This document shows, in pieces, positions 13,953 to 33,600 of a stretch of DNA of 64,000 nt. The DNA is taken from NCBI GenBank assembly GCA_016937695.1, contig JAFGWC010000016.1, forward strand, positions 1 to 64,000, read 5' to 3'. The notes below the pieces were generated by a model, which did no database searches, had not been told where the DNA came from, and was given only the letters and a program-made list of their open reading frames with translations. The translations under genes and the position numbers were made by a program. The stretch is from Bacteroidales bacterium. GTDB lineage: Bacteria; Bacteroidota; Bacteroidia; Bacteroidales; NBLH01. The number at the start of each line of letters is the position of its first letter. Positions within the stretch are counted from its first letter, which is position 1.

Positions 13953-16526
13953 TTATTTTTTTGTTGGTTTTTTAATTTTGGTATTTGTTTTAGCTTTTGT
14001 TTTAACTGTTTTTTTTACTGTTTTTTTACTGTTTTTTTCAGCAGGTAAAAGTTCAATACATTTTTCTAGAGTTAAATTTTCCGGAACGATATCTTTTGGG
14101 AGTCTATAGTATTTAGTTTTAAATTTAATTGTAGGATTTCCCCATCTATCTTTTACAACAATTATATCTTTATTTTCGGGAAACTCTTTAATTAACTTTT
14201 TATTGTCTGATTCTCTTTTTGCTTCAATTAATTCAATTGCTCTTTCAAGATTTATTGTTAATGGGTCGTCTTCTTTTTTTAATGAAGTAAATTTAGATTT
14301 GTGTTTTATATATGGTCCAAATCTTCCAATTCCAATAACAACAGTTTTTGATTCATAATCTCCAATTGTGCGTGGAAATTTAAAAAGTTCCAGTGCTTCT
14401 CCAAAAGTAATTGTATTAATATTTTGAGTAGCTAAAAGGCTTGCAAAACTGGGTTTTTCTTCGTCATCAGATTCGCCAATTTGAACCATTGGACCAAATC
14501 TGCCAACTCGAGCAAATATAGGTCTCCCATTTTCCGGATGTATTCCTAATTTTCTACCGTCTTTATTTTCTTTTAAAAGTTTAAGAGCTTGTTCTAGGTT
14601 AATTGTTTCAATTAATTGATCTTGAGTAAGGCTTGCAAATACAAGTTTATCGCCTTTTTCTGCATCACCTAATTGTACAATTGGCCCAAATCTTCCAATT
14701 CTTGCAAGAACAAGTTTATTTGTTTCGGGATCATTTCCTAAAATTCTTTCACCACTGTTATGTTCTGATTCTAAAAGAGTTTTCTCAACTTTTTCATGAA
14801 ATGGATGATAGAATTTATCTATCATATTTGTCCATTTTAGTTTTCCAATCGCAATTTGGTCAAATTGTTTTTCAACATCAGCAGTGAAATTAAAATCTAA
14901 TATGTTTTCAAAATACTTAATTAAAAAATCATTAACAACCATGCCTATATTTGTAGGAAAAAGTTTAGATTTTTCTTTAGCAAAAACTTCTGTACTTAAT
15001 TGATGTGAAATAATATTATTTTTTAAAATAAATTGATTAAAATTTCTTTCTTTTCCTTCTCTGTCTTCTTTAATCACATAACCTCTTTTTTGTATTGTAG
15101 AAATTGTAGGAGCATAAGTAGATGGTCTGCCAATACCAAGTTCTTCTAATTTTTTCACTAAACTGGCTTCTGTAAAACGAGGTGGATTTTTCGAAAACCG
15201 CTCTATTGCGTTGATTAGCTTTAAGTTAAGCGGAGTGTTTTTAGAAATTATTGGGAGTAAAGTTGATTTTGTTTTTTCGCCATTTTCATCATCGGTTGAT
15301 TCAGTATATACTCTTAAAAAACCATCAAATTTAATTTGTTCGCCACTTGCAATAAATTTTTGAGGACAAATAGAACAATTAATAATAATATTTGTTTTTT
15401 CAATATTTGCATCGCTCATTTGAGATGCAAGAGTTCTTTTCCAAATTAGTTCGTAAAGTCTTTGCTCTTGATAAGTCCCGCTAACACTATTATTTTCCAT
15501 ATAAGCCGGTCTAATAGCTTCGTGTGCTTCTTGTGCGCCTTTGGTTTTTGTTTTGTACAGTCTATGTTTGTAATATTTTTCTCCAAATTCAGAAATTATT
15601 TGCTCTTTTATTGCATTCATTGCAGAATCAGATAAATTTACAGAATCTGTTCTCATGTATGTAATTTTTCCTGATTCGTACAAAGATTGAGCAACTCTCA
15701 TTGTTTGAGAAACTGAAAAACCAAGTTTTCTGCTTGCTTCTTGTTGAAGAGTTGATGTTGTAAAAGGAGCTGTAGGTGATTTTTTTGATGGCTTTTTTTC
15801 TATTTCATCAATTTTATAATTTGCTTTTTTGCAATTATTTAAAAAATCATTAACCTCTTCTTTAGTTTTAAATCTAGTTTGAAGTTCTGCATCTAAGTCA
15901 ACTTTTTTCCCTTTTTCGTCAGTTATTTCAAATTTAGCCGTAACTTTATAATAAGACTCATATGTAAAATTAATAATTTCTCTTTCTCTTTCAACGATTA
16001 ATCTTACTGCTACAGATTGAACTCTTCCTGCTGATAATGAGGGCTTTACTTTACGCCAAAGCAAAGGTGAAAGTTCAAATCCAACTAATCGATCTAAAAT
16101 TCTTCTGGCCTGTTGGGCAGAAACTAAATCATCATCAATATCTCTCGGATTTTTTACTGCATTTTGTATTGCCTCTTTAGTAATTTCGTGAAAGACAATT
16201 CTTTTAGTATTTTCTTTTTTTAAACCAAGTGCTTCAAATAAATGCCATGCAATTGCTTCTCCTTCTCTATCTTCATCAGATGCAAGCCAAACAGTTGTTG
16301 AGTTTTTAGCAATTTTTTTGAGTTCTGCTACCATTTTCTTCTTATCGGCAGAAATTTCGTAATTTGGGGCAAAGTTATTTTTTATATCAATCCCGAAATC
16401 TTTTTTAGAAAGATCCCTTATATGACCATTGCTTGATTTAACATTGAAAGTTTTTCCTAGAAATTTTTCAATTGTTTTAGCTTTAGCCGGTGACTCTACT
16501 ATTACTAAATTTGATTCCATATGCAA
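13953..16526 (-). CDS. topA: DNA topoisomerase I (type IA)
   Basis: Relaxes negatively supercoiled DNA by transient single-strand cleavage. 857 aa. Toprim motifs VIVESPAKAKTIEKFLG at the N-terminus and ASDEDREGEAIAWHL at about 80; the active-site Tyr is in ITYMRTDSVNLS; QRGYV-type and GRPSTYAPTI segments follow. The C-terminus has three Cys-free repeats (LVLARIGRFGPIVQLG, IFARVGRFGPMVQIG, VVIGIGRFGPYIKH) instead of zinc ribbons, then a Lys-rich tail. Met1 and Met3 (16520) are equally plausible starts. Single-gene unit. Confidence 0.97.
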   Translation of the reverse strand: MHMESNLVIVESPAKAKTIEKFLGKTFNVKSSNGHIRDLSKKDFGIDIKNNFAPNYEISADKKKMVAELKKIAKNSTTVWLASDEDREGEAIAWHLFEALGLKKENTKRIVFHEITKEAIQNAVKNPRDIDDDLVSAQQARRILDRLVGFELSPLLWRKVKPSLSAGRVQSVAVRLIVEREREIINFTYESYYKVTAKFEITDEKGKKVDLDAELQTRFKTKEEVNDFLNNCKKANYKIDEIEKKPSKKSPTAPFTTSTLQQEASRKLGFSVSQTMRVAQSLYESGKITYMRTDSVNLSDSAMNAIKEQIISEFGEKYYKHRLYKTKTKGAQEAHEAIRPAYMENNSVSGTYQEQRLYELIWKRTLASQMSDANIEKTNIIINCSICPQKFIASGEQIKFDGFLRVYTESTDDENGEKTKSTLLPIISKNTPLNLKLINAIERFSKNPPRFTEASLVKKLEELGIGRPSTYAPTISTIQKRGYVIKEDREGKERNFNQFILKNNIISHQLSTEVFAKEKSKLFPTNIGMVVNDFLIKYFENILDFNFTADVEKQFDQIAIGKLKWTNMIDKFYHPFHEKVEKTLLESEHNSGERILGNDPETNKLVLARIGRFGPIVQLGDAEKGDKLVFASLTQDQLIETINLEQALKLLKENKDGRKLGIHPENGRPIFARVGRFGPMVQIGESDDEEKPSFASLLATQNINTITFGEALELFKFPRTIGDYESKTVVIGIGRFGPYIKHKSKFTSLKKEDDPLTINLERAIELIEAKRESDNKKLIKEFPENKDIIVVKDRWGNPTIKFKTKYYRLPKDIVPENLTLEKCIELLPAEKNSKKTVKKTVKTKAKTNTKIKKPTKK

Positions 16527-16567
16527 TATAAACTTTAAAAACTGTTTTTTTTAATAAGAAAATCGCA

Positions 16568-16598
16568 CAAAATAAAGAAAATAGTAGGCTAAGTTCAA
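16568..16598 (-). promoter_or_regulatory. Candidate promoter of topA
   Basis: Minus-strand TTATTTTG (16575-16568) matches seven of eight positions of TAnnTTTG, with TTG (16598-16596) 20 nt upstream; the leader would be about 40 nt. An exact -7 match, TAAATTTG (16603-16596), overlaps the -33 but has no TTG of its own. Confidence 0.3.
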
Positions 16599-16780
16599 AT
16601 TTATTTATTAAATTAATTTTGACTAATGCCACTAATGTTCATATAATGAGTACTTTAAGTCACAATATTTTATTCGTTTTATTTATTAACAATGCAAGTT
16701 TGATATCAGAAACTATCGGATGTATATCGAAACCAAATTAATAAAGCTAATATTTTAAAAAAGTTATAATAATTCGATTA

Positions 16781-17897: not shown

Positions 17898-18314
17898 TTA
17901 TTTTAATGTTCTCATATAGTTAACAATAAACCATCTGTCATCGACAGAAGTGATTTTTTTCTCAAAATTAGGCATTTCATCTCTTCCTATAAAACTTTTG
18001 TAATAAAGTTCGCCATCGGTTTGAGCCAAAACTTCTTTTGATGTTAAATCTCTCATTTCGGTATCAAGTTGGCTTGCTTTTTTACCATCGCCATAACCTT
18101 CTGCACCATGGCATGATGCACAATGTTGATCAAACAATGTTTTACCTACTTTTTTAGCATCAGCTTTGCCAGCCATTGGGTTTTTCATGTTTTTAAATTC
18201 AGCAGGTACAGGCCATTCGTCTTGAGTATCATTTGTTGATGATTGTAAAATTAAACCACCAAAAACAAACAATAAGCTCAAAAATAAAAATTTCATTTTT
18301 TTTAGAATTTCCAT
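17898..18314 (-). CDS. Secreted monohaem class I cytochrome c
   Basis: Periplasmic electron carrier with one haem: CASCHG at about 65-70 and a distal Met in GRDEMPNFEKK. 138 aa; signal peptide near the N-terminus. Translation may start at Met1 or, more like a signal peptide, at the ATG at 18296 (MKFLFLSLLFVFGG). Last gene of the operon that begins with the 4Fe-4S protein at 21686, with a terminator right after it. It probably accepts electrons from the NrfD/4Fe-4S module or passes them on to the multihaem proteins. That role is inferred. Confidence 0.9.
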   Translation of the reverse strand: MEILKKMKFLFLSLLFVFGGLILQSSTNDTQDEWPVPAEFKNMKNPMAGKADAKKVGKTLFDQHCASCHGAEGYGDGKKASQLDTEMRDLTSKEVLAQTDGELYYKSFIGRDEMPNFEKKITSVDDRWFIVNYMRTLK

Positions 18315-18434
18315 AGCATTTGTTTTTAAGTTATTAATATATAAAACGTAATATAAAAATGATAATTGCGTATATAAAATGTCATTAAATAGATTAACTA
18401 TTTATACATTATCATTTTATGATTTGTGCAGTTT

Positions 18435-19304
18435 TTAGGCTACTTTTTTTATTTTACTGACTTTATAAATGGCTAAACCAAAATTAAACCATGCACCTAA
18501 AAGGATTATTGCAACAGCAATTAACATCCATAAAGGCGCCTCGCCTGCGCTAGCCCATAAAGCTCTTAAATGTTGATCATCTGAATAAGATACTACTGTT
18601 CCCCACTGAATATTTTGAGATTTTTCAATCGTTCCATATTCATCATTATCAAGAAGTTTAACAATTACTGTCAAATTCCCAGTAGAGTCACCTGGCATAT
18701 CCATCGGAAACTTTACTTGAAGTTGTCCATTTTCATCAGTACTCCCTTTTTCTACTGTAAATAGACTGTATAATCTTTTCACATATACATAAACATCAGT
18801 ATTTTCAACAGGTATAGTTTCGCCTTCATTATTTAAAGTGGTAATTTTCACATCTACCATTTTTAAAGAGTCTACTATATTTAGTAAAAAATTGAGCTCG
18901 GCATCTTTAATTTCGACCGATTTTTTAGCGCTTTTAAACTTTTCGCTTTTTTTCAGTTTTGCAGTAAAAATTGTAAATCCATTTTCGTTTAATGGAAATT
19001 TAAAATCATTTACAATATGCAATATTGCATAGCCTTCTTTGTCAGATTTTATAGTTCCGAGAATTAATTCAGATGAGTCGCTTTCAGCTGTAAATGTAAC
19101 ATTCTGATCAATTACTGGCATAAAATTTTTGTTCTCTTTGTAATATAATTTTGAGGACAATACTTTAGTCCCATCATTTAATTTCAGATATTGTAATTTT
19201 AATATGACTTTTTTAGGCTCATTGTTTTCATCTTGTGCAACAGCCAAAGTATTTATTAAAAACAGAATAAATGAAACACTGATTAATATATTTTTGATTT
19301 TCAT
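18435..19304 (-). CDS. Exported, membrane-anchored protein of unknown function in a respiratory operon
   Basis: I do not recognise a named family. 289 aa. Signal peptide (ILFLINTLAVAQ), then a beta-rich periplasmic part of roughly 220 residues that looks like two Ig-like domains (around 30-140 and 145-240, with DENGQLQVKFP in the second). A single C-terminal TM helix follows (about 257-280, LWMLIAVAIILLGAWFNFGLA) with a short basic tail. It lies between the NrfD-type gene and the cytochrome c gene on the same strand. An assembly or docking subunit of that complex is the obvious guess. No Cys or haem motif is present. Confidence 0.75.
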   Translation of the reverse strand: MKIKNILISVSFILFLINTLAVAQDENNEPKKVILKLQYLKLNDGTKVLSSKLYYKENKNFMPVIDQNVTFTAESDSSELILGTIKSDKEGYAILHIVNDFKFPLNENGFTIFTAKLKKSEKFKSAKKSVEIKDAELNFLLNIVDSLKMVDVKITTLNNEGETIPVENTDVYVYVKRLYSLFTVEKGSTDENGQLQVKFPMDMPGDSTGNLTVIVKLLDNDEYGTIEKSQNIQWGTVVSYSDDQHLRALWASAGEAPLWMLIAVAIILLGAWFNFGLAIYKVSKIKKVA

Positions 19305-19359
19305 GTGTTTATATTTTAATATTTTCTAATAATAATATAAATTTTTACTCCCTTGTTTT

Positions 19360-20685
19360 TTAGAAAAACCTAATTCCCCTAGCTTTTTCTTCCATTTCAG
19401 AAACAGGAATAATTGGGGCAAGTTTTGACATTATTACAAATACTAAAACAAAAAAGGCAACTCCAGCTAAAGTTACTAACCACTCAACCCATGTGGCAGA
19501 ATAGTGTACCCATTCCATTCTGGTATCCTGAATAGGAATATAAGGGGTTTCAAGAGAAGGAACTACAATTAAATATCTTTTAAACCATAAAGCTATTAAA
19601 ATTAGGGCAGAAGTGATAGTTATAGAATTTATTGATCTAAACTTTGGAAACGCTATAATTATAATTGGAATAATAGCAGCAAAAACATTAGAGAATATAA
19701 ACATTGTTCCATATTCAGAAAAATCCCAGAACTTAGATAATAGGATGCTTTCTGTTTTTTGAGAGTTGTACCACGATGTAATATATTCGCTAAACGAAAA
19801 ATAGCCGTAGAAAAGAGAAAGGATTAGCAATGTAAATCCCAAATAATTAAAATGCTCTTTAGTGATATATTTTTCAAGTTTGAAATATTTCCTGTAATAC
19901 CACATAATTAGTATTAAAATTGCAATACCAGAATAAACAGCCGTAAGTACAAAATAGGGTGCAAAAATGCTATTGTGCCATCCCACACGCTGATTCATAC
20001 CAAAAAGCCATGCTAATAAAGAATAGGCTATGATTGATGTTGGAATAATTATCGCAGCCATTATATTAAGTGCCTGATTTAGTAATTTTTCCTGAGCTTT
20101 GGTATTATTATATCCCCATGAAAAAATTGTATAAAGTTTTTTTCGCCAATTGGAAACTTTTAATTCAGAACAGTCGCGTAGTTTTGCAAAATCTTTAATA
20201 TATGTGAAATTTAGATACACAATACAAAAAAACAAATCAGATACAATTGCAATAACATCCCAAATAAGAGGCGACTGTATTCTAGCATATAAAAACATAT
20301 ATAAAAATCGTTCAGGCCGACCAATGCACACTAAAATAAAAATGGGACCAACAATTAAAGAGGTAAGAGTAACTATTTCAAGCATTCTAAGTAGTGGACG
20401 CCCCCAATTTATTCCTGCTAAATGAAATACGCCTGCAATTAAAGCGCCGGCATAACTTAAGCCGATGAAAAATATAAAATTTACTATGTAAACCGCCAAA
20501 ACAACATGGTCGCGCATTCCGGTTACAACCTGTCCCTCAATAACTTGATAAACAAAAGCAAGTAAACCAATTCCTATTATCATTAATAAAACGATAATTG
20601 TTGTAATCCATTTTCTGTCAGGTTTCCCAAGACTAGGAAGGAAATCTCCTAATATTTCTTTATATTCTTTGTTTACTGTGTTCAT
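19360..20685 (-). CDS. NrfD/PsrC-type quinol-interacting membrane subunit
   Basis: Polytopic membrane protein that moves electrons between menaquinol and a periplasmic 4Fe-4S partner. 441 aa with about ten hydrophobic segments, so of the larger HybB/DsrP-like type. Landmarks are YAGALIAGVFHLAGINWGRPLLRMLE and CIGRPERFLYM. It starts 11 nt after the 4Fe-4S subunit stop, so the two are translationally close partners. No catalytic molybdopterin or NrfA-like subunit is next to them. It may instead serve the multihaem cytochromes. Confidence 0.92.
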   Translation of the reverse strand: MNTVNKEYKEILGDFLPSLGKPDRKWITTIIVLLMIIGIGLLAFVYQVIEGQVVTGMRDHVVLAVYIVNFIFFIGLSYAGALIAGVFHLAGINWGRPLLRMLEIVTLTSLIVGPIFILVCIGRPERFLYMFLYARIQSPLIWDVIAIVSDLFFCIVYLNFTYIKDFAKLRDCSELKVSNWRKKLYTIFSWGYNNTKAQEKLLNQALNIMAAIIIPTSIIAYSLLAWLFGMNQRVGWHNSIFAPYFVLTAVYSGIAILILIMWYYRKYFKLEKYITKEHFNYLGFTLLILSLFYGYFSFSEYITSWYNSQKTESILLSKFWDFSEYGTMFIFSNVFAAIIPIIIIAFPKFRSINSITITSALILIALWFKRYLIVVPSLETPYIPIQDTRMEWVHYSATWVEWLVTLAGVAFFVLVFVIMSKLAPIIPVSEMEEKARGIRFF

Positions 20686-20696
20686 TTTTACACCTT

Positions 20697-21686
20697 TTAC
20701 GATTTATCTAAAATATTTTTGTATTTTAACTTTTGTTCATCAGTAAGATCTTTTAATCCAACCTCATAAGGGAAACTTTTGTTAACCGGAGGTAAATAGT
20801 AAACTCTTGGCTGTGTTCCCAGTTCTTCCAGATATCTATATCCTGCTTTTTCCTTAAGGGTTTGTTTAAACCTTAATGTTTCTGTTCCGTTTGATATAGC
20901 ATCTTCATTTTCATCGCCAAAGTATATTGCACCCATAGGACATCCTGTAACGCAATATGGCAATTTACCTTGTCTACTCATGTCAGGACAAAAATCACAT
21001 TTAGTAACGGTTCCCATTTGGGCAGGAAGACTTGTTTCAGGTGAAAATTGCTTTTTATCTTCATCTTCAGCATTTTCTGCTTTAAGTTCATTGATTCTTT
21101 CTTTCCAATTAAATATTCTTGCTGAATATGGGCAAGCTGAAATACAAAATTTGCACCCAATACATCTATCAACATCAATTAAAACGCATCCATCTGACCT
21201 TTTGAAAGTGGCACCAACAGGGCAAACTTTCACACAAGAAGGATTATCGCAGTGATAGCAGTTTTTGGGGAACCAATATGGATCATTGTATTTATGGTCT
21301 TTCATTAAATGAACACTCATATATTCTTGTCCGGGATCAAGTTTATGACCACTTTGACAATTAGAAGTGCATTTACCGGCATTGGCACATCTTGAAAGAT
21401 CAATTACCATAACAAATTTTCTTCCAGGAATCCCTTTTCTTGCTTCATCTCCAACTGTAGGTTCACTTGGAGTAACAGGATAAGTTTTTGTTTTTTCTAC
21501 TTCAACTATTCTGCCGTCTGTAGTTAGCAGTTTGATCATTTCTGTTTTTTTTTCTTCTGTTATATTGCTAGCTTTTGAGCAAGACGATAATAATCCACCA
21601 CCAATAAAAGTACCTGCACCTACTGCAAGTCCTGATTTTAGGAATTTTCTTCGTGAAAATTCTTTACTTTTTTCATCTTTTGGCAT
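20697..21686 (-). CDS. Tat-exported 4Fe-4S cluster electron-transfer subunit (NrfC/DsrO/PsrB type)
   Basis: Periplasmic iron-sulfur subunit. 329 aa with a twin-arginine signal (FSRRKFLKSGLAVGAG). Four Cys groups for up to four [4Fe-4S] clusters follow: CANAGKCTSNC, CYHCDNPSCVKVCP, CIGCKFCISACP and CDFCPDMSRQGKLPYCVTGCP. It opens the operon with the NrfD-type protein. A candidate sigma54 promoter (about 21790) and a paired palindrome (21903-21936) lie upstream. It probably passes quinol electrons to periplasmic cytochromes or the reverse. The terminal partner is not encoded beside it. Confidence 0.93.
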   Translation of the reverse strand: MPKDEKSKEFSRRKFLKSGLAVGAGTFIGGGLLSSCSKASNITEEKKTEMIKLLTTDGRIVEVEKTKTYPVTPSEPTVGDEARKGIPGRKFVMVIDLSRCANAGKCTSNCQSGHKLDPGQEYMSVHLMKDHKYNDPYWFPKNCYHCDNPSCVKVCPVGATFKRSDGCVLIDVDRCIGCKFCISACPYSARIFNWKERINELKAENAEDEDKKQFSPETSLPAQMGTVTKCDFCPDMSRQGKLPYCVTGCPMGAIYFGDENEDAISNGTETLRFKQTLKEKAGYRYLEELGTQPRVYYLPPVNKSFPYEVGLKDLTDEQKLKYKNILDKS

Positions 21687-21936: not shown

Positions 21937-22035
21937 TAATATCTTTGACGCTTTTTTTCTTTAAAATAATACAAGAAGTAATTTAGATTCTAACGAATTT
22001 TATTTTAATTTTAGACTTTGTTATTAATCATTAAA

Positions 22036-22746
22036 ATGAAAAATATGAGACTAATATTTATACAAATTGTTGTTATAGCGCTAATATCAAGTTGTCAAGG
22101 ACAAAACAATGAACAATCAAAAACAAATAGTTCAGATATACATAAAACTGTTGTTCAAGAAGTTATACAAACAAGTTCATATACTTATTTAAGAGTAACA
22201 GAAGATAATTTAGAGAACTGGTTGGCCGTTCCTAAAATGGCTGCAGAACTTGGGAAAACATATTATTATAAAGGTGGAATGGAAATGAAAAATTTTCAAA
22301 GTAAAGAGTTAGGAAGATCTTTTGAAACAGTTTATTTTCTTGAGAAGGTTGTAGTTAATCTTGATGATTTAAAAGAAATTCCTGCTATTACATCATCGCA
22401 TCAAAAAGCAGTTCAACCAACTATTGTGAAAAGCGAAGTTAATGTTGAAGCTGTTGATGGAGGAATTACTATTGCACAGTTATTTGCGGATAAAGAAAAG
22501 TATGCCGGAAAAATTGTAAAAATTAGAGGTAAGGTTACTAAATTTAACGCTGCAATTATGAAAAAAAACTGGATACATATTCAGGATGGAACAGAAAATG
22601 ATGGAAAATTTGATTTAGTTGCTACTTCGCAAATGGATTGTAAAGTAGGTGATATTATAACTGTAGAAGGGAAAATTGAATTAAATAAAGATTTTGGTTA
22701 TGGCTATTCTTATGAGGTTTTAATGGAAGATGCTGTTGCAAAATAA
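22036..22746 (+). CDS. OB-fold-containing lipoprotein
   Basis: Lipoprotein of about 236 aa. I use the ATG at 22036 (MKNMRLIFIQIVVIALISSC); the frame also allows a TTG at 22018. Cys20 is the lipidation site. The N-terminal half (SYTYLRVTEDNLENWLAVPK, YYKGGMEMKNFQSKELGRSF) resembles a small domain often found near cytochrome genes. The C-terminal half (about 145-236) looks like an OB-fold: GKIVKIRGKVTKFN, NWIHIQDGT, VGDIITVEGKI. It is divergent from the 4Fe-4S operon and convergent with ccsBA, which suggests a role in respiratory biogenesis. Function is not established. Confidence 0.78.
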   Translation: MKNMRLIFIQIVVIALISSCQGQNNEQSKTNSSDIHKTVVQEVIQTSSYTYLRVTEDNLENWLAVPKMAAELGKTYYYKGGMEMKNFQSKELGRSFETVYFLEKVVVNLDDLKEIPAITSSHQKAVQPTIVKSEVNVEAVDGGITIAQLFADKEKYAGKIVKIRGKVTKFNAAIMKKNWIHIQDGTENDGKFDLVATSQMDCKVGDIITVEGKIELNKDFGYGYSYEVLMEDAVAK

Positions 22747-22858: not shown

Positions 22859-25800
22859 TTAGGTTATTATATCCTCAATTTGTTTTTTATCTTTTGAATT
22901 TTGGATAAATGCAATTATAGAAACCACTACAATAATACATAAGGTAACATAAACAAAATTTGGTATTGGAACAGCATCGCCTGAAGCGTAGGAGTGAAGT
23001 CCTGACAAATAGTAGTTTACACCAAAATATGTCATTAAAACAGATGAAAAACTCAATAAAGACAATAAATTGAATGCGTAATTATTATTTAAAGATTTAA
23101 TTAATCTTGTATGAGTTACAAATGAATAAATAATTATGGAAATCAAAGCCCATGTTTCTTTTGGATCCCAACCCCAATATCTTCCCCATGATTCGTTTGC
23201 CCATATTCCGCCTAAAAAAGTACCTATTGTTAACATGTATAATCCGGCTATCAAAGCTAAATGATTAACATTTGTTATTTCAGATATTGTTAAATTTATA
23301 TTTTCTGAATTTCTTTTGTTTTTTAATATCATTAAAATTAAACTTAAAAAACCTAATAATGCACTTAATGCCAAAAAACCATAGCTGGCAGTTATTACAG
23401 AAACGTGAATTGTTAACCAGTAAGATTTTAAAACCGGAACCAGATTTGTTATTTGAGGATCCATCCAGCTTAAATGTGCTACCATTAATGTAATTGATGC
23501 TAATAATGCTGTCGCTGCTAATGTAATAGGCGATTTTTTAACAAACATAAAGCCTGCAAGCATAGTTGCCCATGCTATATATATCATAGATTCATAACCA
23601 TTACTCCATGGTGCATGTTCTGATACGTACCAACGCAAACCAAGTCCATAAGTGTGTAATAAGAAAAGAATGCTAAGAAGTATAATTGCTATAATTGTTA
23701 TTTTTTTAACTTCCATTTTAGGTTTTAGGATACCAACAAATAGAACAATAAGAAATATTAAGCCAACAATTCCGTAATACTTATAAATTCTATTAAAGAT
23801 ATCAGCATTTGTATAATGTATTTCCATGTTCAGTTTTGTTTCTGAAGGAATAATTTCAGATGCATATTTTGTTTGAAGTTCACTTATTTGCTGTATAATT
23901 TCATTTGGTTTTGTCCAGTCTCCACTTGTTTCTGATTTTATCAATTCATTATAGTATGATGAAAAAATATTTGCAACAAACAGTTGGTAAATACTATCTT
24001 TAATTTGTTTGTTTTCAGCCGGACTAAGCCATTTTTTATTTATATCACCAATTACAGGAAATACATTAAGATATGTACCGGAATATATCTGATAAGAAAT
24101 ATTAAGTCTTTCATCTACTGCAATAACATCTTTGTCGAATTTATTTCTTTGAGAAGGGTCTTTTTTAAAGGCTTCATCAATATAAAATTTTAATTTATAT
24201 TCGTTTTTTTCAAGATTAACCAGATCATTAAATGAAAAATATGATCCTTCAACTCCTAATAAATTTTTCAATTCAGGATTACTAACTTTTATCATTTTTA
24301 CATCTTTCCAGAATTCAGAATTAAAAACCATTCCTAAAAAAACTTGATTTGAGTTTAATCCAAGAAAATTATCTTTTCTTGATATTTTTCGAAGCAGTTC
24401 GTTTGTTAAAGTATTATATGGCTTAGTACGGCTGCTGTTATCCTGAACAAATAATTTACTAAATACTTTTGAATGAGATAAATCAACATGCTGCCTTGTA
24501 TTTTGAGAATATATGTTTTGAGAACCGAATAATAACAGAATTAGAAGAATTTTACTTATATTTTTTCTTTTATTTCTTATTTCTGATGTCTTTTTTACAA
24601 TTTCAAGGAAATAACTATTTTTGTTAAAGATTGATAAAAACATACCAAGAGATAAAAGAAAGTATCCGATGTATGTAATTATTGTTCCGGTTTTATCTTT
24701 ATTTACCGATAAAATTGTTCCTTTTTCATCTTTATCGTATGATGACTGAAAAAATCTGTAACCTTTATAGTCGAGAACATTATTCATGAAAATGCGATAA
24801 TCCATTTCAATATTGTTGCTTTTATCCAATAATTTTACTTCACTGGCATATGAAGATGGGCTTTCGGAACCAGGATATCTATCTATAAGAAAATCTCTAA
24901 GTTTTAATTCAAAAGGTAATTTAATTTCTGCTGCACCATAATTAAACTTGATGTTAATTCCATTAATATCAGAATATACCGGAATTCCAACAGAACCAAA
25001 TGAGCTTAATAGTTCAATTTTTTTTGTAATATCATTACTTTTTATTTCAAATTCTAAAGCAAAAAATTGAATGCCATTTTTAATATCGCCGGGCACATAC
25101 GATATTCTTGCTTTTTCATATATCTTTTTAACAATAATCTTCTCATTTTCAATTGAATACAGCTTGTTTAATTGAATTTCGTGCTTAACATTTGGCTGTA
25201 AAACACTATCTGTGCTGCCTGTCATGGAAAGTGTATATAATTTATATGGTGATTCTATAAAGAGTTTGCCTTTTTGTGTGAAAAGATTAATGTTTTGTGC
25301 TGAGTTTTCATTGTTTAATGAGAAAACCAATTCGCAAATGCTTAAAGTTGATTTATCTTCTAAAAAATAATTCACCATTCTGCCATGTGTTGGCGAAACA
25401 ATTTCGACTATTGATTTACCTCCAATCACTTCAACAATAGTTTGTTTAGGGTTTGGAATAATATTTAATAATTTCGTTTCAATTTTTTCCCCTTCTAAAG
25501 TAAAAATTTCTTTAAAATCTGATTTTAATTTTGGCGATATAAAAATTTCTTTTTTTAAATGTACTGTTTTGTTATTTTTAGATAAATCAATTTGTAGAAA
25601 GGAATTACCTGAAAGGATTTTATTGTTGGTTTCGCCCTCGCGAATATGCATAAATCCTTCAAAACTAATGTAACGAGTTATACCTGCGCCAATCAATATA
25701 ATTATAAAAGCTAAATGAAAAGTTAGAATACTTAGTTTTTGTTTTTTATACAATTTATATTTGAAGATATTGCCTATCATATTAACTGCAAGTAAAAATT

Positions 25801-25960
25801 GTATTAATTCAAACCACCAAGCATTATATACAAAGTGTTTTGCAACCGCAGCGCCATAATCATTTTCAATAAATGTTGCCGCGCCCATTGCAAAGGCGTA
25901 TAAAATAAGTAATACTGACATTAAATGTATAGAAATAAGTGCTTTGTAAAGTCGTTTCAT
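22859..25960 (-). CDS. ccsBA: Fused cytochrome c synthase CcsBA (ResB-CcsA, system II)
   Basis: Exports haem and attaches it to CxxCH motifs of apocytochromes in the periplasm. 1033 aa. The N-terminal ResB/CcsB half has three early TM helices (about 5-95), a large periplasmic part and a TM at about 430-455. A further periplasmic region follows. The CcsA half, with many TMs, starts near 750 and contains the haem-handling WWD motif WGRYWGWDPKETW at 925-937 and conserved His in VTHTRL and GLHSYASG. It lies directly downstream of the multihaem cytochromes, which need it. A 16-mer also found before the gene at 40669 lies 58 nt upstream of the ATG. Confidence 0.95.
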   Translation of the reverse strand: MKRLYKALISIHLMSVLLILYAFAMGAATFIENDYGAAVAKHFVYNAWWFELIQFLLAVNMIGNIFKYKLYKKQKLSILTFHLAFIIILIGAGITRYISFEGFMHIREGETNNKILSGNSFLQIDLSKNNKTVHLKKEIFISPKLKSDFKEIFTLEGEKIETKLLNIIPNPKQTIVEVIGGKSIVEIVSPTHGRMVNYFLEDKSTLSICELVFSLNNENSAQNINLFTQKGKLFIESPYKLYTLSMTGSTDSVLQPNVKHEIQLNKLYSIENEKIIVKKIYEKARISYVPGDIKNGIQFFALEFEIKSNDITKKIELLSSFGSVGIPVYSDINGINIKFNYGAAEIKLPFELKLRDFLIDRYPGSESPSSYASEVKLLDKSNNIEMDYRIFMNNVLDYKGYRFFQSSYDKDEKGTILSVNKDKTGTIITYIGYFLLSLGMFLSIFNKNSYFLEIVKKTSEIRNKRKNISKILLILLLFGSQNIYSQNTRQHVDLSHSKVFSKLFVQDNSSRTKPYNTLTNELLRKISRKDNFLGLNSNQVFLGMVFNSEFWKDVKMIKVSNPELKNLLGVEGSYFSFNDLVNLEKNEYKLKFYIDEAFKKDPSQRNKFDKDVIAVDERLNISYQIYSGTYLNVFPVIGDINKKWLSPAENKQIKDSIYQLFVANIFSSYYNELIKSETSGDWTKPNEIIQQISELQTKYASEIIPSETKLNMEIHYTNADIFNRIYKYYGIVGLIFLIVLFVGILKPKMEVKKITIIAIILLSILFLLHTYGLGLRWYVSEHAPWSNGYESMIYIAWATMLAGFMFVKKSPITLAATALLASITLMVAHLSWMDPQITNLVPVLKSYWLTIHVSVITASYGFLALSALLGFLSLILMILKNKRNSENINLTISEITNVNHLALIAGLYMLTIGTFLGGIWANESWGRYWGWDPKETWALISIIIYSFVTHTRLIKSLNNNYAFNLLSLLSFSSVLMTYFGVNYYLSGLHSYASGDAVPIPNFVYVTLCIIVVVSIIAFIQNSKDKKQIEDIIT

Positions 25961-26067: not shown

Positions 26068-27162
26068 CTAGTTAACTAGTTTAATTTCTACTCGTCGGTT
26101 TTTTGCTCTGTTATTTTCATCATCGTTTGATGCTATTGGGTTTGATTTACCATAACCTATTGTATACAAACGATAATGGTTAATGCCTTGACTAATAATA
26201 ATTTGCTTGATTTTTTCAGCTCTTTTTTGCGATAATTCACTATTAATCGAATTTTCGCCAACATTATCGGTATATCCTTGTATTTCAACTTTACAATTTG
26301 GGTATTTTTTCATAAAATTAATCACATTTATTAAATTTTTATCTGTATTTTCTATTATTTCTGTTGATGCAAATACAAATTTAATGTCAGTAAATTCCAG
26401 GCTGTTAAATTCATCCAATCGCTGTTTGTAATTAATCCATGAAGGATTTATATCATAATTAAATTTAATATTATTTTTATACGACAAATTTTCGGTAATA
26501 GTATCTTTTTTTGGGACTCCAAATCTATCGTATTTTTTTTCTGAATGACATCCTGGAAAACATGAAGCTCCATTTTCTGTTTTTACATAGTTAATTGGCA
26601 TTTCCCAATGTCCAAATTGAATTTTTTCGTTTATATGAAAATTATTTGGAGAACCATGTACATTGTGGCATACACTACAGTTTCTGCTCTTTTTTCTGTT
26701 AACATGTAAATAATGTAAATTTTCATTTCCGATTCTAAAATTTGTAGCTGAATTTGTATTTACTTCTGCAAATAATTTACTGTCATGGCAACTAAAACAT
26801 AAAGCAAAACTATCGATGCTGGCGTTTAAATATGCTTCGTGACCGGGAAAATTCTTAACCAAGTGCAAAATATTATTTGATCCATGTGGACTATGACAAA
26901 TAACGCATCCACTATCAATAGCTCTGTGTATAAAATTTCCGGTTTGTAACAGTTTTTTTATATTTTTCACTTTAATATCACCAAATATAATTGTTTTATC
27001 ATGACAATTTAAACACAAAGCTTTTTCTTCTGTTAATAATAGTTTTGAATGTTCTGATTGATGCGGATTATGACAAGCTAAGCAATTACCATCGGTTGCC
27101 GGTTTATGCAAAACTTTTTGTTTATCCATAAAATTATGACATGTATAGCAATGTGTTGACAT
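26068..27162 (-). CDS. Multihaem cytochrome c fused to an OmpA peptidoglycan-binding domain (main open part; 5' end frameshifted)
   Basis: The open part has seven haem sites: CYTCH, CLACH, CLNCH, CVICH, CFSCH, CSVCH and an unusual CFPGCH. A C-terminal OmpA-like domain follows (about 265-364: VEIQGYTDNVGENSIN, LSQKRAEKIKQ, NRRVEIKLVN) that should bind peptidoglycan. The ATG at 27162 is internal. In the same frame upstream, two more sites (CIECH, CAECH) and a signal peptide (FFIIIGLLVLYTSTLSQ) are readable. They connect to an ATG at 27385 only if one T is removed from the nine-T run at 27364-27372. The intended product therefore has nine haem sites. It is paralogous to the C-terminus of the 26-site protein upstream. 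It could be a haem wire tethered to the cell wall. Confidence 0.85.
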   Translation of the reverse strand: MSTHCYTCHNFMDKQKVLHKPATDGNCLACHNPHQSEHSKLLLTEEKALCLNCHDKTIIFGDIKVKNIKKLLQTGNFIHRAIDSGCVICHSPHGSNNILHLVKNFPGHEAYLNASIDSFALCFSCHDSKLFAEVNTNSATNFRIGNENLHYLHVNRKKSRNCSVCHNVHGSPNNFHINEKIQFGHWEMPINYVKTENGASCFPGCHSEKKYDRFGVPKKDTITENLSYKNNIKFNYDINPSWINYKQRLDEFNSLEFTDIKFVFASTEIIENTDKNLINVINFMKKYPNCKVEIQGYTDNVGENSINSELSQKRAEKIKQIIISQGINHYRLYTIGYGKSNPIASNDDENNRAKNRRVEIKLVN

Positions 27163-27385
27163 ATTATCTGATAAAAAAAATCCTTTCTCTTTTTTGTCGT
27201 GTGGATGTTTTTTACCGTTTGGAAGATGGCATTCTGCACAATTCTCCCTTATCGGGTGAATTACATTACTTGTAAATAGTTTAGTATGGCATTCAATACA
27301 TTGTTCACTATTCTTATTTTGACTTAAAGTGGAAGTATATAAAACTAAAAGTCCGATAATTATAAAAAAAAATAAACTTTTTCAT
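27163..27385 (-). pseudogene. 5' part of the cytochrome-OmpA gene, out of frame by one base
   Basis: ATG at 27385 starts MKKFIFF and then meets a run of nine T (27372-27364). As written the frame is lost and stops 23 codons in. With eight T the product continues as a textbook signal peptide ending TLSQ and runs into the frame of 26068-27162 with two extra CxxCH sites. The run is in the signal peptide, a common place for on/off switching by slippage. Sequence error is the other reading. Confidence 0.75.
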
Positions 27386-27434
27386 ATACGAGATTGTTAA
27401 TTTTTTGTAAAATAGAGCTTGTTTTGATTTCAGT

Positions 27435-29624
27435 TTATTGTATAGTTCTGTCATATTTTTTCTCTGAATGACAACCAGGGAAACAGGAGCCTCCGTTTTC
27501 CTGATTAATAAATTTAATTGGCATTTCCCAATTACCATAATTTGCTTTATCTTCTATAAGGTGTTCATTTTTAGATGAATGCATGTCATGACAGGTTATG
27601 CAATTTCTCCCTCTGTTTCCGTTAGTATGTAAAAAATGTAAATTTTGATCGCCATCTCTAAAGTTTGTTGCTGTTTTGCTATTTTTTTGTTCAATAAGTT
27701 CGCTAGTATGACAATTAAAACAGAGAGCGAAATTTTCTTTTGTTACAGGGGCATATGACCCAACAGGAAAATTGTCAATCAATAAATATTGATTGTTAGC
27801 CGCATGAGGGTTATGACACATTGAACATCCTTCATTTACTGGTCCGTGAATGTACACACTCGTTTCTAATTGCTTTTTAATATTTATTACGTTGCCTGTT
27901 TTTGATTTATACGTTTTGTTATGACAATTTAGGCATAAATCTTTTTCTTTTAATTTTAGGAAATTTGCCTCGCTTGATCCATGAGGCGAATGACAAGTTG
28001 TACATGATTTTTTATCATTAAGTGCCTTATGTCCAAATTGATAGCTATTAATTCTATTTATTAAGTCATCATGACAATCATAACATAAGCTTGGATTAGT
28101 TTTTGGAACTAAAAAACTCTCTTTTGCACTATGAGCATCATGACATTTAAAGCAATTTTCTTTTGCTGGCGCATGAACATATTTTGATATAATTGCCGTA
28201 CCTACATTATCGTGGCAGCCAAAGCATAATTCCGGCATTTTATTCTTTAAATATGAATCAAAATCCGATTGATGAGAATCGTGGCATTTATGACATCTTC
28301 CACTCTGAACAGGATTATGCACATTATCTCCTTCATTAATTTTTAAATCGTGATATTCTTTACATAGTTTTTCAGTACTTTTTTGAGTTAGTAAACTTTT
28401 ATTTTTAGAACCATGAGTAGCATGACACTTAATGCATTGTCCATCACCGGCTGGTTTATGAATATTTTTTTTAGTGTTAAAATCTTTATGGCAAGAATAG
28501 CACAAATTTGGAACTGTACCTGGTAATAAATAACTTTTTTTTGCACTATGCGGATTGTGGCATTTAAAGCAATTTTCTTTTGCCGGAGTATGAGTTTGTT
28601 TTAATTTCATTTCTTCGCTAACCGCGTCATGACAATTAAAACATAATTCCGGCATTTCTTGTTTCAAAAATGAATTATAGTCAGATTGATGCGGATCGTG
28701 GCATTTATTACATCTTCCGCCTTGAACAGGATTATGCACAATATCTTCTTCATCAATTTTTAAATCGTGGCATTCATTACATAAAGCAGCAGCCTTTTTC
28801 TGTTTAAGTAAATTTTTGTTATTAGAACCATGAGTTGTGTGGCATTTACTGCATTGTCCATCACCGGTTGGTTTGTGAATATTTTTTTTAGTGTTAAAAT
28901 CCTTATGGCAAGAAAAGCATAAATTTGGAACAGTATCCGGCAGCAAATAACTTTTTTTTGCACTATGCGGATTATGGCATTTAAAGCAATTTTCTTTAGC
29001 CGGAGTATGAGTTTGTTTTAATTTCATTTCTTCGCTAACAGTTTCATGACAATTAAAACATAATTCCGGCATATCTTGTTTCAAAAATGAATTATAGTCA
29101 GATTGATGTGGATTGTGGCATTTATGACAACTTCCGCTCTGAACAGGATTGTGCACAATATCTTCTTCATTAATTTTTAAATCATGACATTTATTACATA
29201 AAACTATAGTTTTTTTCTCATGTAATAATTTTCTGTTTTTCGAACTGTGTGGCGAATGACAGTCAATACATTTCCCTTCTTTTGATGGCTGATGCAGATT
29301 TTTTTTATTGTTTAAGTTATCATGGCAAGTATAACATAGTTCCGGCACTTTTTCTGTTAAAGAAAATCCTCCTATTCCTTTTTGAGGATGTTCATTTCCG
29401 TTAGCTTTATGGCATTTATTACATTCCTCTTCTGAAGGTTTGTGTTTATTTTTATTATTCATTAATTCACCATGGCATTGCAGACAGCTTTCATCAGCCA
29501 TGTTATTTATTGATAAATAATAATTAGAATCTAAAGATTTTATTTCATCAACTTTATTTTGATTTACAAAATTTAGATTAAAACTTGAAATCCATATTAA
29601 TATTGAAAATAGAGATATATCCAT
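27435..29624 (-). CDS. 26-site multihaem cytochrome c with three tandem six-site units
   Basis: 729 aa and almost nothing but haem sites: 25 CxxCH, one CxxxCH (CFPGCH, ten residues before the end) and one decayed site (CKEYH at 421-425). It has three 139-143-residue units. Units 1 and 2 (143-281 and 282-420) are nearly identical and have six sites each; unit 3 (from 421) is more diverged and starts with the lost site. Many sites are followed by NPH, a doubled-CxxCH-type pattern. The N-terminus (MDISLFSILIWISSFNLNF) is hydrophobic but lacks basic residues. It starts 9 nt after the beta-barrel gene's stop. It was probably made to span a long distance for electrons. Confidence 0.9.
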   Translation of the reverse strand: MDISLFSILIWISSFNLNFVNQNKVDEIKSLDSNYYLSINNMADESCLQCHGELMNNKNKHKPSEEECNKCHKANGNEHPQKGIGGFSLTEKVPELCYTCHDNLNNKKNLHQPSKEGKCIDCHSPHSSKNRKLLHEKKTIVLCNKCHDLKINEEDIVHNPVQSGSCHKCHNPHQSDYNSFLKQDMPELCFNCHETVSEEMKLKQTHTPAKENCFKCHNPHSAKKSYLLPDTVPNLCFSCHKDFNTKKNIHKPTGDGQCSKCHTTHGSNNKNLLKQKKAAALCNECHDLKIDEEDIVHNPVQGGRCNKCHDPHQSDYNSFLKQEMPELCFNCHDAVSEEMKLKQTHTPAKENCFKCHNPHSAKKSYLLPGTVPNLCYSCHKDFNTKKNIHKPAGDGQCIKCHATHGSKNKSLLTQKSTEKLCKEYHDLKINEGDNVHNPVQSGRCHKCHDSHQSDFDSYLKNKMPELCFGCHDNVGTAIISKYVHAPAKENCFKCHDAHSAKESFLVPKTNPSLCYDCHDDLINRINSYQFGHKALNDKKSCTTCHSPHGSSEANFLKLKEKDLCLNCHNKTYKSKTGNVINIKKQLETSVYIHGPVNEGCSMCHNPHAANNQYLLIDNFPVGSYAPVTKENFALCFNCHTSELIEQKNSKTATNFRDGDQNLHFLHTNGNRGRNCITCHDMHSSKNEHLIEDKANYGNWEMPIKFINQENGGSCFPGCHSEKKYDRTIQ
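27936..29198 (-). repeat. Three tandem ~417-bp coding repeats inside the 26-site cytochrome gene
   Basis: Unit 1 is 29198-28782, unit 2 is 28781-28365 and unit 3 is 28364-27936. Units 1 and 2 are very similar at DNA level (for example the coding of SDYNSFLKQ and KKSYLLP), so that duplication looks recent. Unit 3 is older by divergence. Recombination between copies would add or remove six haems at a time. Confidence 0.85.
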
Positions 29625-29632
29625 AGTAGAAG

Positions 29633-31594
29633 TTATAATTTAAATTTTCTGATAATTTTGCCGTAAACACTATTGAAATTTATTTTATCACCAAGGCGTG
29701 TTCGTCTGTAAACATCAATTCCAATTTCAAATGTCATTTGCCGATAACTGGTTTTAAATTCTCCTCGTCCTGTAATTAAGTCTAAATCAATTCCATCGCC
29801 TTGCTGATTTCTATATCCCATTTCAAAAGAAATTCCTGTTCGTAATCTGTGATTATAAGCTATCTTTCCTGTAACATCTGTATATTGTTGAGGTATTTTA
29901 TCAACAGTTTTTTCATAGTTTCTAATATTCCCATTTAATGAACATATTAGCTTTTTAAAAAATATTTTTTGAAAATTTGCATAATATCTTACCATTTGAT
30001 AAGGTATTATATTGCTGTTATAGTTATCATATTCTACTCCAATTCTGGCAAAGCCAAAGTCAAGTTTAGAGCCAATTAAAGTTTGAGTATATTTATTCAG
30101 AGTTATATCTTCAATATTAATAAAATTTACATAATCTTGTTTTGATGTATGAAAATAGAGTTCAAGCAATCTACCAAAAAGTACAATATTTGCATGAAAA
30201 GAATTATTGTTTGCATCGTACTGATATGAGCCAATTTGCATTGCAGTATAATCGATATAAACTGTTTCATTATTTTGAATTTGTCCGCCGGGAATACGTT
30301 GAATTTCGATAAATCCGTTTCTTTCAATGATAATATAATCAAAATCAAGCTGATAAATTATTGTAGATGAAATATCTTTTACAATAATTGTTGAAGGATC
30401 GATATTTTGCCTGTTTAATATTTCAATTTGTCCATTTGATAATACATGTTCTTCATTTAATTCGCTTACAAAATTATCTTGTGCATTCATAGTTTGATGA
30501 TGCCTGTAATATTTGTAAGAAAAAGAAAATCTTCCGGTGTGTATTTTTTTTGTATAATTAATATCCAAACCTGCTTTATTATTATACTCATCGTATACCG
30601 AATGATTGAGCTTATAGTATTCGTAATATATATTTGTTTTTAAACTTAAAAAAAGTTTATGCCGAATAGAAGCTTTAATTCTGTTCTGATTTAATTTTTG
30701 AGTTTCCTGATGTGTACTATTAAATTGATAATTGGCTAAAAATGTTAGTTTTAGCGGCAACTTCATTGATAATAGCTCATTAACCTGAAATCTTTGTAAT
30801 TTATTATTTCCTTCTTGATTAAAATTAGTAATTATAGATCTGAAATTATATTCTTTTTTTGTATCAAAATAAAAGTTATTTTTTAATGATAAATTATCAA
30901 TATTATTTTCAATTGGCAATAAATCGGCATCTTGCCTTATATAAATATCATGAGAGTAATTTAATTCATTAAAATCAAAATCAGTAAAGGATTTTGAAGC
31001 TTTTGCAAGTAAGTTTTTTTGATCCATTTTAAATACACGGACTGTAGTTACTTCTTCTTGTTCCCAAGAGTTTTGAGCATAGCTTACAGAGAATGGAAGA
31101 ATATCATTTTTATATGACATTCGGCCACCAAATCTGTTATAATTAGATATAATGTTGGTTGGCATTTCTCTATTATTGATGCTTTGATTGAAATTGGCAA
31201 ATGCATTTAAATTAATGTTTTTATTTTTAAAGAAAGTAGTACTTATATCAAGCTTTTTTAACGTTCTCATTTCTGAACGATTAGGAATTGCAAGATATTG
31301 GTCGGTTTTTGTTTCTGGACTATATTCAACATTTAAATCTAAAATCATAAATTTTGGATCCCAAAAATAACTTTTGGTTTTTAAGCTAATTCCTCCCAAA
31401 AAATAAGTGCTTTCATTAAATTCATTAAACTGATTAAACGTGGTTTCGTTTCCTCTGTAGTAAGTACTGAAATTTATGTCTCCATTTAAATTTGTCAGAT
31501 TCCAAAGACCTGCTGATATAATAGGTTCTTGAGCAAAAATGCTTGTTTTTAATATTAAAAATAAAACGATATATGTAAATTTATTTGTTTTCAA
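29633..31594 (-). CDS. Outer-membrane beta-barrel, probable porin of a porin-cytochrome conduit
   Basis: 653 aa, signal peptide ending SIFAQ. The rest has no TM helix or Cys. It consists of alternating aromatic/polar strands (INFSTYYRGNETTF, FSFSYKYYRHHQT, LKLTFLANYQFNST, GISFEMGYRNQQGD) and ends KIIRKFKL, as in large outer-membrane barrels. It lies between a 9-haem lipoprotein and a 26-site cytochrome with gaps of under 10 nt. That is the arrangement of porin-cytochrome conduits (for example MtrB-type systems) that let cytochromes meet through the outer membrane. I see no direct sequence match to MtrB, so the role rests on context. Confidence 0.75.
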   Translation of the reverse strand: MKTNKFTYIVLFLILKTSIFAQEPIISAGLWNLTNLNGDINFSTYYRGNETTFNQFNEFNESTYFLGGISLKTKSYFWDPKFMILDLNVEYSPETKTDQYLAIPNRSEMRTLKKLDISTTFFKNKNINLNAFANFNQSINNREMPTNIISNYNRFGGRMSYKNDILPFSVSYAQNSWEQEEVTTVRVFKMDQKNLLAKASKSFTDFDFNELNYSHDIYIRQDADLLPIENNIDNLSLKNNFYFDTKKEYNFRSIITNFNQEGNNKLQRFQVNELLSMKLPLKLTFLANYQFNSTHQETQKLNQNRIKASIRHKLFLSLKTNIYYEYYKLNHSVYDEYNNKAGLDINYTKKIHTGRFSFSYKYYRHHQTMNAQDNFVSELNEEHVLSNGQIEILNRQNIDPSTIIVKDISSTIIYQLDFDYIIIERNGFIEIQRIPGGQIQNNETVYIDYTAMQIGSYQYDANNNSFHANIVLFGRLLELYFHTSKQDYVNFINIEDITLNKYTQTLIGSKLDFGFARIGVEYDNYNSNIIPYQMVRYYANFQKIFFKKLICSLNGNIRNYEKTVDKIPQQYTDVTGKIAYNHRLRTGISFEMGYRNQQGDGIDLDLITGRGEFKTSYRQMTFEIGIDVYRRTRLGDKINFNSVYGKIIRKFKL

Positions 31595-31599
31595 TAGTA

Positions 31600-32088: not shown

Positions 32089-32153
32089 ATATGAGAAATT
32101 ATCGTTAAAATTTTCATGGCAATTATAACAAAGTTTTGGTTGTGGCTCAATAG

Positions 32154-32441: not shown

Positions 32442-32446
32442 TTATT

Positions 32447-33514: not shown

Positions 33515-33528
33515 AGATTTTTTTTCAT
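33515..33528 (-). pseudogene. Poly-A start segment of the NHL lipoprotein, out of frame by one base
   Basis: ATG (33528-33526) followed by A8 (33525-33518). As written this frame stops after nine codons (MKKNLCYLS). One extra A restores the lipoprotein signal of the gene below. Translation from the downstream TTG would give a signal peptide without basic residues, so the ATG is the more natural start. Confidence 0.6.
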
Positions 33529-33550
33529 TTCGAATAATTTATTTCAACAA

Positions 33551-33574: not shown

Positions 33575-33600
33575 CGAAAATTGTATCAACTTTATGTTTA

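Follow-up and report, generated by a model that had tools for sequence, protein, structure and literature searches.

A four-gene FeS/NrfD operon from Bacteroidales as a candidate quinol:cytochrome c oxidoreductase with no further catalytic subunit

What can an iron-sulfur (FeS) protein and an NrfD-family membrane protein do when their operon encodes no catalytic subunit? This question is raised by four genes at 17898-21686 of the window, the 64,000-nucleotide stretch of contig JAFGWC010000016.1 (Bacteroidales bacterium, assembly GCA_016937695.1) that we analyzed. On the minus strand, they run in the order FeS protein, NrfD protein, an immunoglobulin (Ig)-like protein with a transmembrane helix (Ig-TM), and cytochrome c; we refer to this set as the module. 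A first-pass annotation, made from the sequence alone, had proposed it as the inner-membrane quinol oxidase of a porin-cytochrome conduit encoded nearby. Our analyses suggest that the product of the operon is probably a quinol:cytochrome c oxidoreductase that works without any additional catalytic subunit, because its NrfD protein is homologous to ActC of alternative complex III (ACIII), the gene neighborhoods of its two lineages fit this role, and no molybdoenzyme accompanies it.

The operon and its subunits

All four open reading frames (ORFs) that the first-pass annotation had listed are present at their places and on their strand (Table 1), separated by 11, 55, and 120 bases. The hairpin just behind the cytochrome c gene (-15.9 kcal/mol, z -5.4) was detected in a separate hairpin analysis; it is absent from the listing of the promoter scan, which was barely above shuffles (36 seen vs 28.6 expected, standard deviation 5.7). 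We compared the operon across an unbiased order sample of 149 genomes and a wider scan of 84,980 species genomes. The wider scan gave at least 570 matching stretches, of which the best 80 were used; these are biased to lineage A (see below) and are no proof of a range confined to Bacteroidota. The four-gene grouping goes beyond chance because the FeS-NrfD-Ig order recurs in relatives. Operon composition is constant across the order genomes and the wider locus set, where the FeS gene lies directly upstream of NrfD in 143/144 cases. ORF picking kept the longest ORF, so some genes were lost (e.g., NrfD in L050 and L110). The operon contains no molybdopterin or NrfA gene, in agreement with the earlier claim that a catalytic subunit is missing.

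The NrfD protein matches the Pfam NrfD family (PF03916; 100 bits, cut-off 25.8), while its best NCBIfam match, DsrP, stays far under cut-off (75 bits vs 350), as does QrcD (45 bits vs 570). When solved structures were searched with a profile built from 32 NrfD sequences of the module, ActC was matched over its full length (6f0k_C, E 6.8e-85, 288.7 bits; 6f0k_C, 6lod_C, and 6btm_C at E 1e-82 to 1e-85), ActF was matched weakly, and PsrC was not reached at E 0.001. By these matches, the window protein is an ActC homolog over its full length. The two groups are separable in genome searches, where ActC scored 266-302 bits, and module NrfD genes that were complete or almost so reached ~460 to 675. 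The quinol site of ActC is formed by His139, Asp169, and Asp253, 10-12 Å from the first ActB cluster, according to the available text of PMC5928083. ActC Ser164, Asp169, and Arg395 align with Ser138, Asp143, and Arg370 of the window protein, all matching; Ser138 and Asp143 are invariant (144/144 module NrfD proteins), and Arg370 is found in 139 of the 142 rows without a gap at this position. The accessible part of PMC8076601 describes these positions as quinone-site residues, with the Ser in every NrfD protein except ActF. Together, the structure-profile matches and site residues support the first-pass reading of this protein as the quinol-facing membrane subunit.

The FeS protein carries an N-terminal Tat motif (RRKFLKSG; Pfam TAT signal 22.5 bits, just under the 22.7 cut-off) and four ferredoxin motifs (Fer4_11, 74 bits). 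Its best NCBIfam match is DsrO (157 bits, cut-off 200), and NrfC is far under cut-off (115 bits vs 377.6). Motif I reads C100-x5-C106-x3-C110-x3-H114 in place of CxxCxxCxxxC. The same pattern is present in 140/143 FeS genes (the remaining three are only 104-192 aa long, as fragments), and the alignment shows the second Cys of motif IV also lost in most lineage-B rows. PsrB and ActB retain CxxCxxCxxxC in motif I; it is motif III of ActB that is one Cys short (CIGT). In this protein family, the ligands of motif I belong to the most membrane-distant cluster, the one facing the molybdenum subunit. We infer that the altered motif I fits a new electron partner.

The Ig-TM protein consists of a signal peptide, beta-sandwich domains at residues 33-133 and 135-232, and a C-terminal transmembrane helix (258-288). 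An AlphaFold model (69 sequences, mean pLDDT 92) shows the two beta-sandwich domains and one C-terminal helix. Pfam Big_1 is matched below threshold (23.8 bits, cut-off 34.9), and the matches of a sequence search, to Ig domains of the intimin type, were no better than E 1e-4. A specific redox fold was considered and rejected: among the 50 Foldseek matches listed, only generic Ig-like folds appear (query-normalized TM ≤0.32). The first-pass proposal that this protein is a new subunit is supported, as alignments and the model show a constant, unnamed component of the module. The window cytochrome c matches Pfam Cytochrom_C (PF00034; 41 bits, cut-off 21.3), and a monoheme cytochrome gene directly follows the Ig gene in 62/102 lineage-A modules. 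In lineage B, the first Ig domain is exchanged for a cytochrome c domain, and the rest of the protein (second Ig domain and helix) is kept. Because the lineage-B cytochrome is fused to this same Ig-TM part, the simplest reading is that the Ig-TM protein is an anchor or docking subunit that would hold the cytochrome. Separately, a cytochrome-Ig-TM protein lies directly beside a molybdopterin oxidoreductase at L055:7855-11571 and at L089, as if a different complex had also taken up the anchor.

Table 1. Features of the operon and its surroundings in the window
Feature	Position	Strand	Size or basis
FeS subunit gene	20697-21686	-	329 aa
NrfD-family (ActC-type) gene	19360-20685	-	441 aa
Ig-like/TM gene	18435-19304	-	289 aa
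Monoheme class I cytochrome c gene	17898-18314	-	138 aa, heme motif CASCH
Hairpin and T-run, probable transcription terminator of the operon	~17867-17831	-	folding energy
Divergent lipoprotein-like gene, weak OB-fold match (lipoOB)	22018-22746	+	context gene
ccsBA cytochrome c maturation gene	22859-25960	-	context gene
Multiheme/porin-cytochrome conduit, separate unit	26068-34185	-	context

Two lineages and their partners

The module is widespread across Bacteroidota, as two lineages. In the order sample, the Ig protein was matched in 35/149 genomes and the module NrfD in 36/149 (G116 being a contig-end fragment). The best 80 stretches of the wider scan come from Bacteroidota (Flavobacteriaceae, Chitinophagaceae, Cyclobacteriaceae, Bacteroidales, and others), plus one record labeled Alphaproteobacteria; Lutibacter and Maribacter are among the carriers of the lineage-A module. 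In a quick tree built from 131 NrfD rows, one side is made up of 90 lineage-A rows (support 99). The other has 40, which comprise all of lineage B plus 13 labeled A. Lineage assignment of genomes was based in part on position in this tree, and L057 is labeled A although it falls on the B side. The window NrfD lies within an 11-row lineage-A clade (support 100), beside that of G150 from the same genus (69% identity).

After removal of duplicates, the neighborhood set held 141 modules (99 A, 32 B, and 10 unassigned), which we examined within a radius of 8 kb; all neighbor counts are lower bounds, as many contigs end inside 8 kb. Lineage B adjoins caa3 or cbb3 oxidases. Ten of the 32 lineage-B modules have an oxidase nearby, one has ActB, and one (L089) has a molybdopterin gene; on the B side of the order sample (30 modules), 11 have a heme-copper oxidase and one has DUF5777. 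The B-side genes were identified by Pfam as SCO1 (just under cut-off), COX1, COX3, COX4_pro, COX2 with cytochrome, and UbiA, and elsewhere as CcoNO and CcoP. If caa3-type Cox1 is defined as scoring over 400 bits, 32 order genomes qualify, 18 with ACIII and 14 without. Module B is present in 13/14 of those without ACIII and in 2/18 of those with it (Fisher p 5.3e-6). Three genomes with B-side modules and a separate Ig protein (G022, G067, and G131) were kept apart in this count; if they are counted as B, p is 8.1e-5. By its distribution, module B thus looks like a substitute for complex III.

The neighborhoods of lineage A are of another kind: 61 of the 99 modules are near a DUF5777 barrel, 59 near a small cytochrome (cyt119), 35 near a hexaheme lipoprotein, 27 near cytochrome b561, 26 near a heptaheme protein, and 11 near ccsBA. 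None of the 99 is near a molybdopterin gene, and the one with a heme-copper oxidase is L057, a B-side row. The A side of the order sample agrees (16 modules: DUF5777 9, multiheme 11, oxidase 0, molybdopterin 0). We made several further observations around these modules. At L036:4079-6583, L042, L120, and others, a DUF5777 barrel is followed by a heptaheme protein with a C-terminal transmembrane helix and cytochrome b561, a possible second quinol-interacting pair in the module operon. Proteins of ~500 aa with N-terminal transmembrane helices, a NapC/NirT-like part, and seven heme motifs recur beside lineage-A modules (encoded at L036:1238-2740, with similar genes in L037, L039, L042, L046, L117, and L122). 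In Lutibacter litoralis (L149), genes that by eye resemble those of heme biosynthesis follow the module and hexaheme lipoprotein block on the opposite strand.

The commonest lineage-A partner block consists of a Crp regulator, the hexaheme lipoprotein, cyt119, and DUF5777, and in relatives (e.g., L115, L117, and L149) it runs straight into FeS-NrfD-Ig. The window genome (G000) has this block on another contig (C71:14701-18473; L193), with no module after it: a 226-aa gene, the hexaheme lipoprotein (15648-16748), cyt119, and DUF5777. The 226-aa gene sits where relatives have the Crp-like regulator and is, by position, its putative counterpart. At L033 in G062, from the same genus, two module copies, cyt119, DUF5777, lipoOB, the hexaheme lipoprotein, and ccsBA are found together, and the window module with ccsBA and lipoOB looks like a split-off part of such a cluster. 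The lipoOB gene type is near 5/99 lineage-A modules and once near a conduit (L093); it recurs beside modules, hexaheme lipoproteins, and ccsBA. The literature we searched, in which subscription journals were mostly outside coverage, contains no paper naming DUF5777.

The hexaheme lipoprotein has a collagen-like linker, a lipoprotein Cys, and six CXXCH motifs with six further invariant His. Its model (mean pLDDT 80) matched OcwA by Foldseek (E 4.4e-4), and VIA scores gave OcwA Z 14.2, an S-layer undecaheme cytochrome Z 13.9, and NrfA Z 12.6. According to the available text of PMC6703420, OcwA falls in the NrfA group and is proposed to be the terminal reductase at the surface of Thermincola potens. 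Because of its lipoprotein features and these model matches, lineage A would most likely end at a surface or outer-membrane multiheme protein. The nearly tied OcwA and NrfA scores also allow another interpretation, in which the FeS-NrfD pair is an NrfCD-like feed and the C71 lipoprotein is the missing catalytic subunit for a soluble acceptor. Its nearness to 35 of the 99 lineage-A modules fits this, as does its setting on C71, where it keeps the same Crp, cyt119, and DUF5777 neighbors. However, it is not near the other 64 (many on short contigs), its six CXXCH motifs and six invariant His could leave no open heme, its lipoprotein Cys and collagen-like linker point to a location at the surface, and lineage B is without such a partner. 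We therefore regard an NrfCD-like feed as rather unlikely, although worth keeping in mind.

The window genome and the neighboring conduit

The window genome is 99.6% complete. In it, COX1 was not found, ActB of ACIII was not found at E 1e-30, and no NapC/NirT/CymA protein (PF03264) was over cut-off (best 18.5 bits vs 24.1), nor was there one in the module. Its two PF00384 molybdopterin genes each have their own FeS protein and membrane anchor, one in a PsrABC operon on C22 and the other, on C107, a DmsA-like gene that has a DmsB-DmsC fusion nearby; for this reason, we rejected the module as an orphan feed of a distant molybdoenzyme. The sole other PF03916 gene is the PsrC-like one on C22. Because of these absences, and because both molybdopterin enzymes are anchored, the systems tested, which did not include bc1, CbcL, ImcH, or NrfA (PF02335), leave no candidate quinol:cytochrome c oxidoreductase other than the module. 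The PsrABC-like operon on C22 is followed by two membrane proteins, possibly thiosulfate-related, which we take to be YeeE/YedE-like.

The conduit encodes an OmpA-cytochrome, a 25-heme protein, a 653-aa barrel without a Pfam match, a 7-heme protein, an NHL protein, and a 4-heme protein. Together with ccsBA, it is indeed near the operon, as the first-pass annotation had pointed out, starting 4.4 kb from the FeS gene, but the three do not form one unit, as the plus-strand lipoOB gene intervenes. The barrel (29633-31594) was found in 6/149 order genomes and 4/7 genus genomes, nine genomes in all. The conduit block (barrel, cytochromes, NHL proteins, and a sigma-54 regulator) is found again in eight further genomes (L090-L097), incompletely where contigs are short.

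Is the module the dedicated quinol oxidase of this conduit, a CymA/CbcL analog that evolved with it? Besides their proximity in the window, the two co-occur: the conduit is present in 3/13 lineage-A genomes of the order sample vs 3/136 others (Fisher p 0.009, kinship ignored), and in G000 the COX1, ACIII, and NapC-family alternatives are absent. Yet the module is found in 0/8 of the other conduit neighborhoods, of which three (L095-L097) are on contigs of only ~6 kb (under 6.5 kb). Six of the nine conduit genomes have a module (G039 of lineage B only), and the conduit occurs without it in G099, G125, and G151, the last two of which have ACIII. Conversely, 10/13 lineage-A genomes lack the conduit, among them the same-genus G062 with three modules. 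The proximity seen in the window is therefore not conserved, and a loose association remains. We thus set aside the idea of an oxidase tied to this conduit, which is now quite improbable. Profiling of the module against the barrel and cytochromes gave a divided result, with multiheme genes near 48/99 lineage-A modules but no conserved linkage to the conduit barrel. What recurs in relatives is linkage to a different partner block, and this partner is itself a surface-type multiheme cytochrome rather than a molybdoenzyme. The first-pass annotation had named consistent linkage to a distant catalytic gene, and not to the conduit, as evidence against its proposal, and this result goes halfway towards that. 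In the window organism, the adjacent conduit may still receive electrons from the module, because the genome is without a heme-copper oxidase, ACIII, and a NapC-family protein.

Electron route, known systems, and significance

Read from the gene content, homology, site residues, and gene linkage observed above, the proposed quinol:cytochrome c oxidoreductase would work as follows. The ActC-type NrfD protein would oxidize menaquinol at its periplasmic face, as its conserved site residues suggest. Electrons would then pass through the Tat-exported protein by way of its four Fe-S clusters. The far cluster with altered ligands, which faces the catalytic subunit in molybdoenzymes, is the likely electron exit, and the monoheme cytochrome c, positioned by the Ig-TM protein, would be the next carrier. 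From there, the lineage-B complex would supply caa3 or cbb3 oxidases, and the lineage-A complex would supply outer-membrane multiheme cytochromes. In the window organism, the acceptor is probably the hexaheme lipoprotein/DUF5777 system on C71, and possibly the adjacent conduit.

Several points weigh against this route. The position of ActC His139, at which the NrfD-family members listed in PMC8076601 have an acid or His, or Ser in SreC, with ActF excepted, is Cys120 in the window protein and Cys in 83/102 lineage-A rows; Asp takes its place in 16/102 lineage-A and 24/32 lineage-B rows. Asp253 is replaced by Leu227. The lineage-B module L089, from the same genus, and the lone cytochrome-Ig gene L055 adjoin a molybdopterin gene. 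Lineage A also occurs with cytochrome b561 and CymA-like genes, possible quinol oxidases of the same pathway. The Fisher tests ignore kinship between genomes, and bc1 was left out of the complementarity test. Finally, we only infer the direction of flow, i.e., quinol oxidation and not the Qrc-type reduction of quinone. Both directions are known for NrfD/FeS pairs, with Qrc as the example (PMC13059093, in part), and CbcL/MtoC homologs are thought to be bidirectional (PMC6295460, in part), so the module might act as a Qrc-like cytochrome c:quinone reductase that passes electrons from an extracellular or periplasmic donor to the quinone pool. Its nearest solved family is ActC and not QrcD, however, and the terminal oxidases found with lineage B require flow from quinol to cytochrome; a reversed route seems very improbable.

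The proposed oxidoreductase would be a relative of ACIII, with which the module shares an ActC-type quinol-site protein, an Fe-S wire, a monoheme cytochrome c, the lack of a molybdenum cofactor, and, in lineage B, linkage to caa3 oxidase genes. The operon differs in having no pentaheme ActA, molybdoenzyme-like B1 domain, ActD, or ActF. Its FeS protein has Fer4 domains only, it has an Ig-TM subunit of its own, and its quinol-site set is incomplete, with Ser138 and Asp143 but neither His139 nor Asp253. The altered cluster is the far one (motif I), whereas in ActB it is the near one (motif III). A degenerate ACIII was rejected, as too many subunits are absent and a different cluster is altered.

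FeS-NrfD pairs without a molybdenum subunit are already known as a kind. SirCD of Shewanella and Cbc4 (CbcSTU) of Geobacter pair FeS and NrfD proteins without a molybdenum subunit and oxidize quinol towards periplasmic cytochromes, and Cbc4 has a cytochrome c besides. SirCD partly replaces CymA, and Cbc4 is of the same general make-up (PMC11434368 and PMC8524038, in part). Compared by description only, they differ from the module in that the available text of PMC11434368 reports no Ig-TM subunit or ActC-type affiliation. The third is the NrfC/NrfD pair of Melioribacter roseus (Mros1571-1572), which also lacks a molybdopterin subunit and is proposed to feed multiheme cytochromes and Fe(III) reduction; again by description only, the available text of PMC3534657 mentions no Ig or cytochrome subunit. 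DsrMKJOP resembles the module in that DsrO and DsrP are the best NCBIfam matches, but both are under cut-off, and the operon has no DsrMK or triheme DsrJ. Molybdenum enzymes of the CISM group (Psr/Dms/Ttr) differ by their molybdopterin subunit, whose gene is near 0/99 lineage-A and 1/32 lineage-B modules (L089). As for NrfABCD, the operon has no NrfA; the NrfA/OcwA-fold lipoprotein recurs by the module in relatives and is on C71 here. The analogy to CymA/CbcL drawn by the first-pass annotation stands for the proposed working role, a membrane quinol oxidase feeding outer-membrane multiheme systems, but not as homology: the proteins are unrelated, and the module has neither a NapC/NirT domain nor a multiheme-b561 fusion.

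The combination of an ActC-type core with an Ig anchor, an altered far cluster, two lineages, and complementarity to ACIII is seemingly undescribed; the literature searched, with subscription journals mostly outside coverage, contains no earlier description of the module. More tentatively, and at somewhat under an even chance, it may represent a Bacteroidota-wide class of quinol:cytochrome c oxidoreductases apart from bc1 and ACIII, with a stripped-down ActC/FeS core, an Ig-TM cytochrome anchor, and a putative three-Cys/one-His far cluster. Lineage B would then be the missing complex III of caa3 strains without ACIII. Lineage A would be the inner-membrane start of outer-membrane multiheme respiration that ends at an NrfA/OcwA-fold surface lipoprotein, and it would be re-used beside the conduit in the window organism.

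Some Bacteroidota lack ACIII although they carry a cytochrome c oxidase, and lineage B is a specific, testable candidate to fill this complex III gap. Extracellular electron transfer in this phylum is poorly known: a 2018 survey lists no CymA homolog, five CbcL/MtoC/MtrH homologs, and one ImcH homolog (PMC6295460, available text). Here, lineage A offers a concrete candidate for a route from quinol to surface multiheme proteins.

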